64,000 nucleotides of DNA from Caenorhabditis elegans (Eukaryota > Nematoda > Chromadorea > Rhabditida > Rhabditidae): positions 11,532,001 through 11,596,000 of the forward strand of contig NC_003283.11 in NCBI RefSeq assembly GCF_000002985.6, written 5' to 3'. The notes below the pieces were generated by a model. It saw only the letters and a list, made by a program, of their open reading frames with translations. It was not told the origin of the DNA and ran no database searches. A program made the translations under genes and the position numbers. Shown here piece after piece: positions 773 through 10,242 of the stretch (within the stretch, counting starts at the first letter, position 1; the number at the start of each line of letters is the position of its first letter).

Positions 773-3700
773 ATGTCAATTGAAAACTATCACCTATCAT
801 TCCTCAAGGTGGGTTTTTAGATTTTGTCAAAATAGAAAATAAGATAAATATTCAATCAAGAATACCTTAGTGCAAAATAATTCAGAACCGCTGGCTAGGA
901 AGTAATAGAATTTGTAGGGAAAGATACTTTTACAGCGGTTCCATCTAGAATTAGTAGAATTGGCTGACATTTGTTTTGTCGTTGTCTCGCCCTTATTTCC
1001 CTATGAGTCAGTCAGTCTGATGCCGTTGTGACGATGCCTTTCGATGATGATGATGATGGCACACCGAGGCTGCTGAAAGGGCCCCGGGAGACCGGTTTTC
1101 CTGGCCGTGAACGGTCGATGCGGGCGCGCAATCGTCAGGCATCGTCGTTGCGCAATCGAAAGTGAAAGAGAAAGGAGATGAAAGTTTTTGATTGGGTTTT
1201 CACCTCCACTCACTCTTTCTATGGCGCTGGCGCCAGAAACAGCAGTGACACGAGAATCGTTTCAATGCATTTCGTTCATGAAGAAGAAGACGATGGTAAT
1301 AATATTGAAACAACATAACTGGTTGGTATCCATTAAGATTGTGACCTTTCCTCGAGAGAGAAAATGAAGAAGAACTTGAATTTGATTGTGTCGAAAGGCA
1401 ATTTCAGCCAAAATGTTGACAGAAAGGGTCCATCAACAACAATTATCTTTTCCCCATCTTGACAAGAAAATGACAATGATTCGAAAAAACAAAAACATAA
1501 GACACCGAGAGATTCGATTGATCATGATCGATGTATGTACCAGTATTGATTGATCTCTATCTCTTAAACTGAAATCAAATGAATTGACAACAACTGAAAC
1601 GATTTCAATTCATAGAAGACGTTGATGAGAAAAGAACTGGAAGTGTTTGATTGGCTGTAATGAGGAAAGGTGAAATTCGATGCCTCTTCTCCTGCGGGCA
1701 ATTGGTCTGGTGCCATAGCTCGATTTCAACGAATTCAACTCCGATTCCATTGCAAAGTGCTCTTTTTTCAATGCTTTATATCTATTTTTGGTCTAGTCTG
1801 CCTTACTATGACAATCCCTTCTCAAATTTATTAGTTTTAAATGATAGGTACAAAAAAATATTTTCCATTAAGCATACATCAAAAACGTTTATTGACCAGA
1901 ATTGACCATGTTGACTCCGTTGTCATTCATTTTATTTTTCAGTACTGCTATAGATCCCTACTATTTTCAGTGATATTTATTTATATTTAGTATTCCTCTG
2001 CAATGACAACCCTTTCTTCTCAATATTTTTGTGCGTTTGTTTGTGTGTTTGTTGAAAAAGCAATGCACATCGAGAAAAAGTGTGAGTGAGTAACACTGAA
2101 AAAGGAAGAGAAAATGGAAAAAAGAAGAACAACTACACAACAAGTGAAAAAAAAACTAACAATAGTGATTGTTTGAAGATGGAGGAGCGGTCTGAAAGAA
2201 ATTGAAAGAATTCTGAAAATTTGAAACCTTTGCTAAACTCATCAGAGACCACTTATGACTTTTCCACTATAAGCCAAGGCACACGAAGAATAACAAAAGT
2301 CCCTAATCTTCGTGGGATCCTTCTTTGCCACTTTTGACTTTTGAGGAAGGCCCAATAGCTATTTCCTCGGTTTCTCCTAGAGAATAGCCTATCGGTTTCT
2401 ACCTCCTCATTGCTCGTTTCGCGCATTTTCTTTCCTCTTCTCTCTTCCAATTGTTTCAAGTTGTTTGAACAGTGCCCCCGTCCCTTCCTGACTCCTTCTC
2501 GGAACTCTTTTTGCCGCATAGCTGTTCCTACAATCATGACGTCAAAAGAAGTTACTTTGTTATCAGCGTAGTTTAGTTTTTGCGAAAACGTCCAAACTAA
2601 CCAATTCTTAAACTTTCTCTTTTCCCGCAAGAATCGTCTGATCATTATCACTGTCTCTTGTTCTCGCTGTTATCAAAGACGGATTCACCGTGTATGTTGT
2701 TCTTGAAAGTAAGAGGCAGCTGATTACGTTAACAACATTCGTTAGCGCATTTTCTTTCTATCTCTCGATCATCCCCAAAATCAGTGATGTACCGTGTCAC
2801 ATGTGAAATGAAAAATCAAAACCCATTCAAAAGTGATCAAAAAAGCGTGAAATATGTATATGAAACTTGATAGAATTGTCTGGTCCAATAATATACTGGT
2901 GAACAAGAATAACTATTGCACCTCGGGTCGGTTGAAATTTGTAAATTCTTCCCGCCGCTTCCCGCCGGCTGCTTAGGCATCTGGAGTCAGCTGTTAGCCG
3001 GAGCCAGAAGATGCTTTATCGACTCCCGGGAAAGATTCGCTGTCCTTCTGTTTCTATTTCTTTTCGTGGAACAACTTGTCTAAGAGTTTCTAGTATGCAT
3101 CACATCAACCCTTAAAATTTATTTTAAAGTTTTTAATTTAGTTGAAATAAATTTGGAAATAAAATTGCAAATTACACCTGATTAGTTTTTTGTAGATTCA
3201 ATATTTTTTAAGTTCTGTGAAAAAAGTTAGGAAAATAGAATACCATTGTTGCTATACTTGTTTTGCTCTTTTGCTCTACATTTTGGGTAATGTGATCCTC
3301 ACGTTTTAGTGGTGGTTGGATGAAATACAGATCTCTCTTGCCGCAGCTTCAAGAGCCGCCGTGCCCCCCTAAACAACAAAAACATGCTCTGCTGTTCAAA
3401 GTGTCTTGTTTTCCTTTTATTCTCTTCCCCTATCGTTCTTTTTTTCCAAAATGCCAAAACAAAACACTGAAACAAACGAACGCCTCTCAATTTTTCATTC
3501 TCACTATTTGAATCACTATCTTGTTGAATCGAATCTTTGGTTAGTGCTGTTTTGGGGAGGTTTTCCAGATTCTCAAAGATTGAATCGAAAAAGTACATCG
3601 TAAAATCTCAGCTGTGCGCCAGTTTCACAGACTTCCAAAAGCACACGGAAGGCGAAGAGACGCAGCAATCGAAATGGCAACATTTGCTTCTATCTGCCCC

Positions 3701-6700
3701 CACTCACTTCCCGCTTCCGCTGGGCCCATATTAATCAGGAATAATGGGATCGGCAAGCTCTCTCTTAACTTGCATCCAAGAAACATTTTTCTGATAATTG
3801 GGACTGCTCCTCTTGTCATGTCAGCTGGTTTTCCGTGCTCTGCTCCTTTTGTTACAGTGATGATAAGAACAGCGAAATGAAACAAAGTTTCCATGTTATC
3901 AGTAGAGACGGAGGGAAAACGAAAAATGAAAACCGAAAGATTCAACTTTTGTCTGTCTTCTCCTTTTTGCGATTTTTTAACCAAAAAATCTTTCAATTTT
4001 GGAAAAAAATACAATTTATTTTGATTATAAATCTTTCAATTAAAACACTTTTCAGAGTCTCTGCAGTGCCGATAACGGTGTTGGTGTCCCCAGTCACAGT
4101 ATTAACGGATTTGGTTCGACACCATCAACACAATCATCACCGACTTCTGCTCCAAACACTATAGAATCACTTTTGGAGCCATTCGGCCTACAGAACAGCC
4201 AAGCTGACTTCGCTGCCGCACTTGCCCAGTTGACCGGACAGTCTGTCAAACAAATGGATAGGTAAACGATTTTAAATATTACAAAATCTTCAAATTTTTT
4301 TATTCGAAACTTTGAATCAAAAATATTTATTTTTTCAAATTTCCTTTTGAAATAGTCATTAAAAATGTGATCTCCACGTTTTTCAATGTTTTGTATCCCA
4401 GAGGAATGAAATTATCAAATAAATTTCTCCTCTTTATTTTCTGACCCAAAGTCTAGTGACCAGGAAATGGCTATTACTCAAAAAAAATTAGAAACGAAGA
4501 TTTTTACACTAAAACCGGAAAAGTGTCTCTCCCACTCTACGTGTTTTGCACTTTAACAGTTCGATTGTACTCTACTCTTTTTTTCTTTGTAGACAACAAG
4601 CTTCGGCTATACAAAGACCTACGTCGTTTGCTGGGAGCTCTCTCTTCGGAGCTTCTGAGTTTGGAAACCCACTTGGAGCGCCTGGAACACCAATTGGTAT
4701 GTTATTGCTTTTTCATTAAAACAATTGCCTCATTCTTGAAAACTTGAACAAGTAGTTATCACTTATTTTGATGTTTTTCACTTTTTTTTCATTCAATCCA
4801 AGTATATCCCCTCTCTCTCTCCCACATCCTGCGTTTCTCGTCTAAAAAAAGAAGCACATACACACAATTCTAAGAGTTATCTCCCAATTCACATCCAATT
4901 TTTCAAATTCTTTCTTTTTCATATGTGCATCTCAGCTGAGCATCTCAAATTCTCGCCTCCGATGGGGGCCCCCACAGTCATATGACGCAGTTTGATAATT
5001 CGAAAACGAATTTTGGTGGGATTTGTCCCCTCTCTCTCTCTCCAAAAGCAAGCGGATTACTTCTGCCTTTGCTCCCAACCCCTAAAGCTCTTGTAACTTT
5101 AAAAATTTCAATTTAGCTGTATATTTCATAAGAGGCTGTTATGAAGGCAGGTGGTGAAATGTCAGTTAGATTTATATATGTTACTGCTGACAACTCGTTG
5201 ATTGCTTTATCTTTTATGGTCCACTTTTCGCTAATTCTTTTGTTAGTTGTATATTTGAGAAGTCAGCAACAGATGGACGTTAAGCTTATCTCTAATCTCC
5301 GAAAAGTTCAAGGTTGTCACAAAGTTGTCAGCACTGATAACATCCAGTGGTCCTCTATCCAATCTTCTCGTTTTTCCTTGTAAAGTTGATATTTTGATTT
5401 ACGATTTACAAGTATTTTTCATGGAGAGTTAGACAAATATTATCACTTAAGGAATTTCTCACAACGTTGTTATATACTTGAATCTGAATTTCATAGACTA
5501 GAAGCTTTACAGACAATTCGATAGCTGCAATCCAGTTCAAAATTACTTTTTATTTTCCTTATCTTTCATCTAATATTCTGATAAGACCACCACATGTTCA
5601 ATTAAATTCTAGTTTGAAACTTTTGACAATTTCTCCAACAATATAATAATTATATGAATTCCCTCTTCTAGTGACAGCATTCATATATACATAGATATTC
5701 TCAATATCTAATTTGTACTTGAGCTTTCAGGGCAACAGCTTCTAGACTTTTATCTACAAGAAAAAACCAATTTCTTATTTGAAAACTACAAGTCTAACTG
5801 CCCATTTAGAACTCTTAACTTCAGTAACGAACTCGATGATCTCAAATATCTTGGAATTAGTGTCTCCTAATCTAGTTGTACTTTTCATGCCCTCCAATAC
5901 ACTCTCCTTCTTTGTTTTCTATTTCATTCTTCTGAACTTTGAGTAGTAATAGACACACGCGACTTCTCTTCTCATTTCACATTGTTCACCCCGCCGACCC
6001 TATTAGCACTAAATATGCATAAGATACACATTCATGTTGATGTAGCTTTTATGCGTTTACACCGCCTTGGTCTAAGTGCAGATAACTCTGGAAGGTTCAA
6101 CAATCTTTTGAAATTGTTTTAAAAACGCGAGAATCTTCTTTTTTCGCTGTACTTTTGCTCTTTTTTCTCGACTCCCATAGCTCGCGGAGCTTCTGTGCTC
6201 TCACTTTGTTATGTATATTTTTATTAATGGTGTCACTTGTTGCCCGCCTTTTCTTCATGTATCATGATGTCTTTGGAACTAAGCACGCGTTCATAAACAA
6301 GTGGAAGATGCGGAAGATGCTGAAGAAACAACAAGAAGAAGCAGACAAAGTTTTGACTTTTTTCAGTGTTCCCACCCGTCATAAACAAAATTTATAGAAT
6401 AGAAGACGCGAGCACGGACCCCCACTTTTTCTTTTTTTGAATTTACTTTTGACCAAGATTTCTTCTGGAAGATTTTCAGAATGGGAACATTTTGTTATTA
6501 AAAATTGATGATATGAAAAAGTTAATGTGAAAATTCTAAAGTTGGAATCCCTAGAAGAAAGAAGAAAACTATTTTTGAAACATCTTTTTAAACTTTCATT
6601 GCTATTGCTTTTAGTTAGATCGTATCTTCTTCTCAACGATCACCCATGTGAGCATCTGTAGAAGGTTTTCAAATTTCCGTTGTACCATGCTCCGCCCATT

Positions 6701-8184
6701 TCTTTCTCAACATTCGATGCTCTTGGGTTTAAAAACAAATAGTTTGTTCGTCTTCTTCATCTCACCGGAAGGAACGAACCAAATCAAATTTAGGGAGCAG
6801 GAGCATCTCCTCTTTTTCATTTGTCCCCGCATTCCACTCTTCCATTTTTTCTCCGACAATTATTTTTTTTTGTTCCTATAGTCTTGTTGAAGCAAGAAAT
6901 TTATATGAATACTTTATTTTCAAAATTTCAGGATCACAACATCAAATGTCCATTGGGCAGAATCTAGTTAGCGCATCGTCGCCATACTCGACTCCACAGC
7001 TCACACCGATGGCGACTCCGAATGGACAAGCACCACCACCAAAGAATCCGAAACTCTATAAGACCGAGCTCTGTAGATCTTGGATGGATCATGGACGATG
7101 CAATTATGGCGAACGGTGTCAGTATGCACATGGAGAACTCGAAAAGCGACCAGTTCCTCGACATCCAAAGTACAAGACAGAGGCTTGTCAGTCATTCCAT
7201 CAAAGTGGATATTGTCCATATGGTCCAAGATGCCATTTCATTCACAAGTGAGTCCTACAACAGTTTTTTCCGAGATACCCAACTTGATTTGAAAACTTAC
7301 ATATCTTATTAATCGAGATTTTCATAATACTCATTAATTTTCAGTGAACCTCCAAGTGCTCAGAGTCAGTATTCAACACCGATCTCCACTCCAGTACCAC
7401 ATCAAACTACACCTTCTCTTTATGCGTCACAGTATCATAATGTCACAATGAAGCAGCAACAACCAACTCAGAATGCCAGTAATGTTCCGAATAATGTTCT
7501 TCAACGTGTCTATTCTTTGCCAAACGGAGGATACGGTAGTGCTGGAGAATCACCGCCATGTAGTTCAAATGACTCTGGAAGTGAATCGCCGAACGGAAGT
7601 TTCTCGCCTGGATTGGATCTTGAAGATAGTGGTATGTTCGTTTTTAGTTACAATATAACAATTGGCAGGCAGGCATGTACGAAATTCTACATAGATATAC
7701 CATCTGTTCAAATACACAGAATCTGCTGTTTCAGGACCATTCTCTGCTGGATTCCTTTCCGCTTCACCACACAAGTTGCAACAGCAGAAAACAAATGCGG
7801 CACCACGTGTTCCGACGAGTAGATTCCTATCGTACGATCAGTCAAATTTGTGAGTTTTTACAAACTTCAATTGATATTTGTTGAATTTCGTAAATTTTCA
7901 GAAACGACAGCCAATTCAGCAACTTGCTGAATGACATTTGTCAATGGAATATTGAAGATTCATTATCTACTCCTTTCTCAGGCAATCTTTAATTTTGCAA
8001 TCTTTAGCAATTGTGAACAAATAAACTTAAAAAAAAAACGTAAATATTTTTAATTTGTTTTATTTTAGGATTCTTGCCATCAAAATGGTCAACAACAACA
8101 GAAGAAACGTCACCAGCGACCACAACCCCAGTGTCAACACCCGGTCGTTTGCCTGTTTTTGCGCAGCTCAGTAATCCCCAATAA
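773..8184 (+). CDS. ccch-1: CCCH tandem zinc-finger protein of the tristetraprolin/TIS11 family
   Basis: Exons: 773-808, 4056-4261, 4593-4696, 6932-7247, 7345-7631, 7735-7849, 7902-7981 and 8069-8184, giving 419 aa; all phases close. Two C-x8-C-x5-C-x3-H fingers lie at about residues 163-182 and 201-220, each preceded by YKTE, the TTP signature for binding AU-rich 3' UTR elements. The flanks are Ser/Thr/Pro/Gln-rich and probably disordered. The last exon ends in RLPVFAQLS, which resembles the C-terminal NOT1-binding motif by which TTP recruits CCR4-NOT deadenylase. The last intron is GC-AG (7982-8068). Reading through it instead gives a 384-aa form ending at 7992 that lacks the motif. Introns 1 (3.2 kb) and 4 (2.2 kb) are unusually long for this genome and may hold enhancers or other promoters. 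The symbol is recalled from the locus. Confidence 0.88.
7982..8068 (+). other. ccch-1: GC-AG intron with an internal poly(A) signal (alternative 3' end)
   Basis: The donor reads CAG|GCAATC and the acceptor TTTTAG. Splicing 7981 to 8069 keeps the frame. If the intron is retained the frame stops at 7990-7992, and an AATAAA hexamer follows at 8020-8025 inside the intron before an A-run. The weak GC donor and the intronic poly(A) signal would compete, giving long and short protein isoforms. Confidence 0.7.
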
Positions 8185-9215
8185 AATTTGAACTGCTTCC
8201 TATTCCGAGAGAACCGTCCATTTTCAGGGATTTCTAGAAAGGTTCCACCAAAGTTTAGCCTAATATCTTTCCAATATCGAGTATACTAATAATTACCGTT
8301 TCTTGTTATGTTTTCAATTTTCTATGTATAGTTTAGTGCCCCCTTCCCACTTCCCCTACTTCAAAATGTATCTATGCCGCTAGTTGACACCCCCATTTTA
8401 TCAATATTTTTCAGCCCGATGTCCTTCTTTTCCCAATCAAATCTCTTCATTATTTTATTACTTCAATTTTGACGACTTCTTCATCAAAAACCGAACAATT
8501 GTACCTATGTAACTTATGCGCTTTCGAGACGTTTTGAGTGCCTTAACCCACAAAATTGTACAATAATGTTCAAATTCCGAGTAGATCTAACTTATTTGAT
8601 TTGTGAAATCTGCATGCTTTCTTTCAAATTTCATGTATTTGTACATCTACCATCCCATCCCACCGCTAGCCTTTTGTGTCGTACAGTCCAACTTTTTTTT
8701 CTCTTCTCTTCTAATTTATTCATCCGTTTTCCCAACATTCTTTCTACTCAAAAAACATTTCTTTCACACATTGTCAACTAGCTGTATACATTTTGCATTA
8801 TTTCTTTACAATTTTAAGTTTATATAAGTGCAACTAATATATCGTTTTTTATCGTCAAACTACCCTCTAATTCTTTTCTAATTTACTGCTTTTACACCGC
8901 GCATTTTTTTCTATATTTAAACTTTGTTCCTCGTTCGCTAGAATTTAATTTCAACTTGTACAACAAACATAGTTTCACTAATGTCGAGTAGTTTTTAATT
9001 TTCATACTTTTTCCGTGTCTCAATCATTTTTCCCCCATCTTCCTCGATTTGCGTCTTGTCCTTATCATGAGAAAATCCCGGTTTCTGCTGCCCCTTTCCC
9101 ATTTTATTTTCTGAAAACTGTTTTTAAAATTATATTTCCCATGTTTTTTATTTCGATTTGTCTTTTTTTTTCTTCTCCCATATTTGCATAACTTTTATAA
9201 TAAAGTTCACTTCTT
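8185..9215 (+). other. long 3' UTR of ccch-1
   Basis: No coding exon is visible. The next AATAAA after the long-isoform stop is at 9199-9204, so the 3' UTR would be about 1 kb, long for this genome. It is pyrimidine-rich and holds several ATTTA pentamers (near 8714, 8880, 8916 and 8942), the element type that TTP-family proteins bind. Autoregulation is therefore possible, but that is inference. Confidence 0.5.
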
Positions 9216-10242
9216 TTTGAATTTAATTTGATTTATTTGAAACAGAAATTTTAAGAATAATTGAAAGCAGATATCTGGGAAAAGTTTTTTCAAACAATTT
9301 AAGCCGTTCTTAGGAAAATACATTTAAAATTGTTTTTGTTTCGCAAAAAAACTCAGTAAAAAAATAATTTTGCCCAGATAATCCGAATTTTTTGAGACAG
9401 TACGGACCAACGGCTATGGAGCCCCTATTATTAGAGGGGTTTAGAAGATGTCCATTTCATTGGGGCATTTTATTGGCGTCAGCATCTCTACCGACCAGCT
9501 GGTTTGGGCATACCCAGATGTTTTAAAATTTACAGAAAAATCGCATTTTCGACGAACATCACATTTTTCTAGAGTTTCAAAAAAGCGTCCATGCCTTGAA
9601 AAATTAGCAGGCATGTAAAAACATGAGTTTTTATTAGTAACAAAAGTGTTCCATTATTTGGTTTATTCATTGATATTTTGAACTAACTATGAATCACCTT
9701 GAACTTTGAAAATGAAATTACGAACAAAGTTTTGCGACACTTCTGGTATCAACTTTGGAATGCAGTGCGCAAAGTGTCAAGATCAAACGATTCTCAAAAT
9801 GCGTATAAATGACGTCGTGTATATTTTCGATGAAATCATCATTGCCTCCTCCAAAACCCAGTGTTGATTTTTCATGTAGTGTCACTAACGAGTACAAATG
9901 GTTCAAATTACAGAATTATATTTCTACACAAGTTTTTAAAAAATTACCGCAATCGCAATAGCTAAGAAATTTGTTTATTTGCGGTTCCATTCAAAAAAAT
10001 TACAATTTTACAAATTCTTCACTTTGTGTAGTTGGCAGAATTTAAAACTAAATTTAAATTACTTTAACTTTATCTTGAATGACAGATTTTTAAATTGAAA
10101 TAAGTAAACTTCTACAAATTGTGATTGATCTCCAATAATTGTTTGCGACAGGTTAAAATTGTTAACTTATATTTTTCAGTGTAATTTGCACTAAAAACAA
10201 TGTTTTCAGAAGTGGTCACTCGGCATTTACCTGCAGCTTCTT

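Follow-up and report, generated by a model that had tools for sequence, protein, structure and literature searches.

The window analysed here, 64,000 nt of the Caenorhabditis elegans genome (contig NC_003283.11, positions 11,532,001 to 11,596,000 of the forward strand), contains ccch-1, the C. elegans orthologue of TTP/ZFP36, which we take to be the gene F38B7.1. From the open frame and the splice sites, we placed a frame of 419 residues that runs from an ATG at position 773 to a TAA at 8182-8184 across eight coding exons. Nine exons were counted for the worm zfp36 gene, named ccch-1, in PMC3546996; the ninth perhaps lies outside the eight placed here, as an untranslated or alternative exon. 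In window coordinates, the features are:

773..808, plus strand: exon 1, coding part (open frame and splice sites)
4056..4261, plus strand: exon 2, 206 nt (gene model)
4593..4696, plus strand: exon 3, 104 nt (gene model)
6932..7247, plus strand: exon 4, 316 nt, holding both CCCH zinc fingers (Pfam zf-CCCH twice; closest structures TIS11d 1rgo and TTP 1m9o)
7345..7631, plus strand: exon 5, 287 nt (gene model)
7735..7849, plus strand: exon 6, 115 nt (gene model)
7902..7981, plus strand: exon 7, 80 nt, encoding W370; a candidate to be the published cassette (skip test)
7982..8068, plus strand: intron 7, GC-AG, 87 nt, 18% GC (gene model)
7982..7983, plus strand: GC donor CAG/GCAATC (U1 duplex -4.5 kcal/mol)
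7990..7992, plus strand: stop codon TAA upon intron 7 retention, 384 aa (translation)
8020..8025, plus strand: intronic AATAAA, possible poly(A) signal (sequence; within chance)
8029..8038, plus strand: A10 run of the genome, a risk for internal priming and the likely area of cleavage (hexamer 19 nt before cleavage, PMC7050520)
8069..8184, plus strand: exon 8, last coding exon, with a CNOT1-interacting-like motif and W388 (gene model, motif)
8144..8170, plus strand: RLPVFAQLS codons (translation)
8180..8185, plus strand: AATAAA overlapping the long-form stop codon (sequence)
9199..9204, plus strand: distal AATAAA, where most long-form transcripts probably end (the only other AATAAA or ATTAAA between 8185 and 9400)

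The protein carries TTP-type tandem CCCH zinc fingers by sequence: Pfam zf-CCCH matched two stretches of it (7.6e-21), and the fingers matched the structures of TIS11d (1rgo, 6.7e-29) and TTP (1m9o, 6.2e-26). Tryptophan occurs at residue 166, within a finger, at 370 in the part encoded by exon 7 and at 388 in that encoded by exon 8.

The peptide of human TTP that binds CNOT1 is APRRLPIFNRISVSE (PMC11939966). An earlier note on this DNA had likened the ccch-1 tail to the NOT1-binding motif of TTP, and alignment bore out this resemblance, with 6 of 15 positions identical, including the core R, L, P, F and S (RLPVFAQLS in the worm, RLPIFNRIS in human). From the composition of ccch-1 itself, the pattern R-L-P-[IV]-F-x-x-[LI]-S is expected at any one position with a probability of about 7e-9. 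Chance does not account for the tail motif, and its assignment as a putative TTP-type CNOT1-interacting motif is well supported. On the receptor side, Pfam CNOT1_TTP_bind had one match in the genome (contig C3, 4.0e-42), and the worm NOT1 protein aligned to 4j8s_A, a fragment of human CNOT1 solved with a TTP peptide (2.2e-38). The CNOT1 residues described as key for TTP binding are F847, Y851, E893, F896 and Y900 (PMC11939966); with the numbering of that paper taken as 8fy3_A minus five, anchored by peptide 901-909, worm NOT1 was identical at all five. Ligand motif and receptor pocket are both present in the worm; their contact is putative. Within the worm NOT1 gene, a short intron (approximately L010:1922-1975) splits the TTP-binding domain (L010:1501-2060).

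The searched genome comprised 100,286,401 bases in seven contigs, and protein searches of it with the tail returned only ccch-1 among the matches listed. Furthermore, when nine zinc-finger loci were inspected (about 3 kb each, some overlapping; 42 CCCH hits genome-wide), the motif was found in the two covering ccch-1 only. No Pfam family covered the tail. A search of PDB sequences with the tail alone retrieved lectins and a fimbrial protein, which were judged to be noise, TTP peptides being too short for the PDB sequence file. A DNA-pattern search for the motif was likewise uninformative, with at least 152 matches versus at least 39 for a backwards control and ccch-1 not among the matches listed. 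A scan of bacterial and archaeal contigs for nematode contamination yielded no relatives.

The tail is joined to the rest of the protein through intron 7. The earlier note had described a GC donor, an intron, a stop on retention and an AATAAA at this junction, and each was recovered at the same position. The exon 7/intron 7 junction reads TCAG/GCAATC, with the exon ending at 7981; the acceptor is GTTTTATTTTAG, and in the gene model the GC-AG junction joins an open frame. Splicing of intron 7 yields a protein of 419 aa and retention one of 384 aa. The 38 residues previously said to be added by splicing are reached only by counting glycine 382, which both forms share; 37 residues (383-419) are new and replace the NL of the retained form. 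Pairing of CAG/GCAATC with U1 was estimated at -4.5 kcal/mol, the weakest among the seven ccch-1 donors; the other six ranged from -5.3 to -9.9 kcal/mol, and CAG/GCAAGT gave -7.4 kcal/mol. In GC donors, the C is usually offset by closer agreement with the consensus at the remaining positions (PMC2490688), which is a tendency rather than a strict requirement; a close fit to the consensus at the other positions was not seen in the intron 7 donor, which has T at +5. The same paper reports a GC-AG counterpart in C. briggsae for just 5 of 26 worm GC-AG introns (PMC2490688), and therefore a non-conserved GC in intron 7 would mean little. A 10-nt direct repeat, GCAATCTTTA, at 7982-7991 and 7997-8006, begins at the GC donor; a repeat of this length arose in 48 of 2000 shuffles, and it may represent a small tandem duplication.

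In the retained intron, the stop is followed by the AATAAA (8020-8025), the A10 run (8029-8038) and a T-rich stretch, which doubles as the acceptor tract. Read from the sequence, intron 7 has the layout expected of an intronic polyadenylation isoform, with an in-frame stop and a hexamer past a donor that would be bypassed. The hexamer is set 19 nt before the cleavage site in PMC7050520, and this spacing predicts cleavage at about 8039, beside the A10 run. Because that genomic run adjoins the AATAAA, oligo-dT methods could report a false poly(A) end at intron 7. Pseudo-introns, defined by a strong GT donor and a TTT(N)CAG acceptor, were collected from both strands of 264 kb of the C. elegans genome, and 11 of 98 contained the hexamer. 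It was also present in 285 of 1046 segments of 87 nt with similar GC content, and dinucleotide shuffling of intron 7 produced it in 1922 of 5000 sequences. At a chance rate of 11-38%, the hexamer alone is therefore no evidence of function, and it is nothing unusual for an in-frame stop to follow shortly after a retained donor. In a comparison of 51 presumed true sites with 734 other AATAAA, a context model for poly(A) signals had no power (cross-validated AUC 0.45); the probable cause is that many of its long ORFs terminate in introns.

A second way of changing the tail is suggested by published data. In a 2008 microarray study (PMC2265522), F38B7.1 is among the 62 of 352 cassette exons that change more than four-fold during development. 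Its AS ratio for embryo versus L1 is given as -3.26, negative values denoting more inclusion in the later stage; the exon is scored '+' by RT-PCR, and its length is not a multiple of three (PMC2265522). For N2 versus sym-2 embryos, the ratio is -2.03, interpreted by its authors to mean that SYM-2 determines the embryonic pattern, and the ratios for smg-1 and smg-2 embryos, -0.49 and 0.78, lie below the four-fold line (PMC2265522). The earlier interpretation is borne out by sequence for the tail motif, whose receptor pocket is conserved, and for the GC donor, the weakest in ccch-1; transcript ends within the intron are putative. It had not considered a frame-shifting cassette exon, another way in which the tail could be lost.

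None of the internal exons 2-7 has a length that is a multiple of three, so the motif would be lost on skipping any one of them. In silico, skipping of exon 2, 3 or 4 left 33, 93 or 150 residues, and these exons were set aside as tail switches, since the fingers are lost too or the stop comes very early. Skipping of exon 5 or 6 gave 249 or 325 residues, with the fingers kept and an early stop. Omission of exon 7 produced 389 aa with a frame-shifted tail and a stop at 8172-8174, the only skip to leave the rest of the protein whole and to end in the last exon. Because of this stop in the last exon, and because the smg embryos of PMC2265522 show no effect of NMD, exon 7 is the best candidate for the cassette. 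Splicing is at least as likely a tail switch as intronic polyadenylation. Speaking against exon 7, neither it nor introns 6 and 7 contain GGG runs; the long introns 809-4055 and 4697-6931 (introns 1 and 3) hold most of those in ccch-1. Proteins of the hnRNP F/H kind, to which SYM-2 belongs, are known for binding G-runs, and the runs of introns 1 and 3 are possible sites of control by SYM-2 or HRPF-1.

The earlier note had described the shorter protein as one without the deadenylase contact. This wording is too strong, as mammalian TTP minus the motif keeps activity (PMC9476947): deletion of the motif from full-length TTP impaired decay only marginally in cells, conserved tryptophans that bind CNOT9 cooperate with the motif, and mice with motif-less TTP are reported to be far less ill than TTP-null mice. 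In ccch-1, W370 is kept in the 384-residue form; the exon-7-skipped form is without W370, W388 and the motif. A motif-less ccch-1 form is more likely to be weaker than inert.

Several known systems resemble parts of this arrangement. TTP, ZFP36L1 and ZFP36L2 share with ccch-1 the tandem CCCH fingers, the C-terminal CNOT1-interacting motif and the NOT1 receptor pocket; in the mammalian proteins, control of the motif is attributed to phosphorylation, whereas ccch-1 encodes it in a separate final exon that follows a weak GC donor. In C. elegans, daf-2b likewise has a divergent or weak donor, an intronic stop soon after it and an intronic AAUAAA (PMC7041946). That isoform is backed by EST and RT-PCR evidence, whereas the ccch-1 isoform is a prediction from sequence, and the 87-nt ccch-1 intron is short, unlike that of daf-2b. 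Intron 10 of let-2 is a further GC donor in a developmentally spliced C. elegans gene, and there the GC donor is needed for regulation (PMC2490688); it governs use of the internal exon 10, whereas the choice in ccch-1 would concern the C-terminus or the 3′ end. In a narrow literature search, mostly at the level of abstracts, we found no TTP-family isoform that loses the motif through splicing or intronic polyadenylation; the worm motif or intron 7 may already have been described.

From the separate last exon, the weak donor and the frame-shifting exons, we infer that the motif is an optional module. The motif has its own last exon, joined through the weakest ccch-1 donor, a GC site; in the proposed explanation, a failure at the 3′ end would drop it yet spare the zinc fingers. 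By one route, exon 7 would be skipped, giving the frame-shifted tail of the 389-aa form; by the other, intron 7 would be kept, giving the 384-aa form, whose mRNA may receive its poly(A) tail after 8020. In our judgement, there is an even chance that one or more motif-less forms are made naturally and vary in development, most likely with more in embryos. Weighing against this are the activity that mammalian TTP largely keeps when the motif is removed (PMC9476947) and the chance that the published cassette is the ninth exon. Skipping of exon 7 as the route, possibly alongside intronic polyadenylation, is a tentative and somewhat unlikely part of this proposal. We further infer, rather than observe, the identity of the cassette exon, the accumulation of motif-less protein and its weaker action as an mRNA destabiliser. 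A further version, a SYM-2-controlled embryonic TTP that lacks the CNOT1 motif through exon 7 skipping or intronic polyadenylation, is unlikely. Here the motif-less form would keep target mRNAs bound with no fast deadenylation, in competition with the full-length form, and RNA processing would play the part in the worm that in mammals falls to phosphorylation of the motif. If this holds, RNA processing and developmental stage, and not kinases alone, would determine how TTP is linked to CCR4-NOT, and the contribution of the CNOT1 contact could be tested by simple genetics in a whole animal.

Against such an optional motif, it can be argued that intron 7 is removed constitutively, that the AATAAA is incidental and that practically all ccch-1 protein keeps its tail. 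The acceptor is good, the hexamer falls within the 11-38% chance rate, and GC-AG makes up 0.6% of the junctions of C. elegans protein-coding genes (PMC7242645), so that most such introns need no special reason. However, no other ccch-1 donor is as weak, the usual compensation is missing (PMC2490688), and a developmentally regulated, frame-shifting cassette exon has been published for ccch-1 (PMC2265522); we give constitutive removal a little less than an even chance. A strict poly(A) switch, in which the GC donor is bypassed, cleavage occurs near 8039 and a stable 384-residue protein is made, can draw on the workable order of stop, AATAAA, A-rich and T-rich stretches and on the same layout in daf-2b (PMC7041946). 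The chance-level hexamer, the powerless context model (AUC 0.45) and the doubt that the A10 run casts on any oligo-dT evidence weigh against it, and in this strict form we regard it as improbable.

The published cassette may also be a different exon: one in the 5′ untranslated region, or else exon 5 or exon 6, for which the early stop may bring decay. All six internal exons have lengths that are not multiples of three, nine exons are counted in PMC3546996 versus the eight placed here, and introns 1 and 3 contain the G-runs. The less than four-fold change in smg-1 and smg-2 embryos (PMC2265522) is nevertheless more readily explained by an isoform that lacks an early stop, and another cassette exon seems to us rather doubtful.

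Downstream of the coding region, 8185-9230 is a probable 3′ UTR of 1 kb, rich in pyrimidines. AU-rich elements, a possible sign of autoregulation, were not enriched in this segment (five ATTTA against a shuffle mean of 4.47, and no TATTTAT). An mRNA ending in intron 7 would miss the entire 8185-9230 segment. The long-form stop codon (8182-8184) lies inside the second AATAAA, use of which would leave a 3′ UTR of approximately 15-20 nt.
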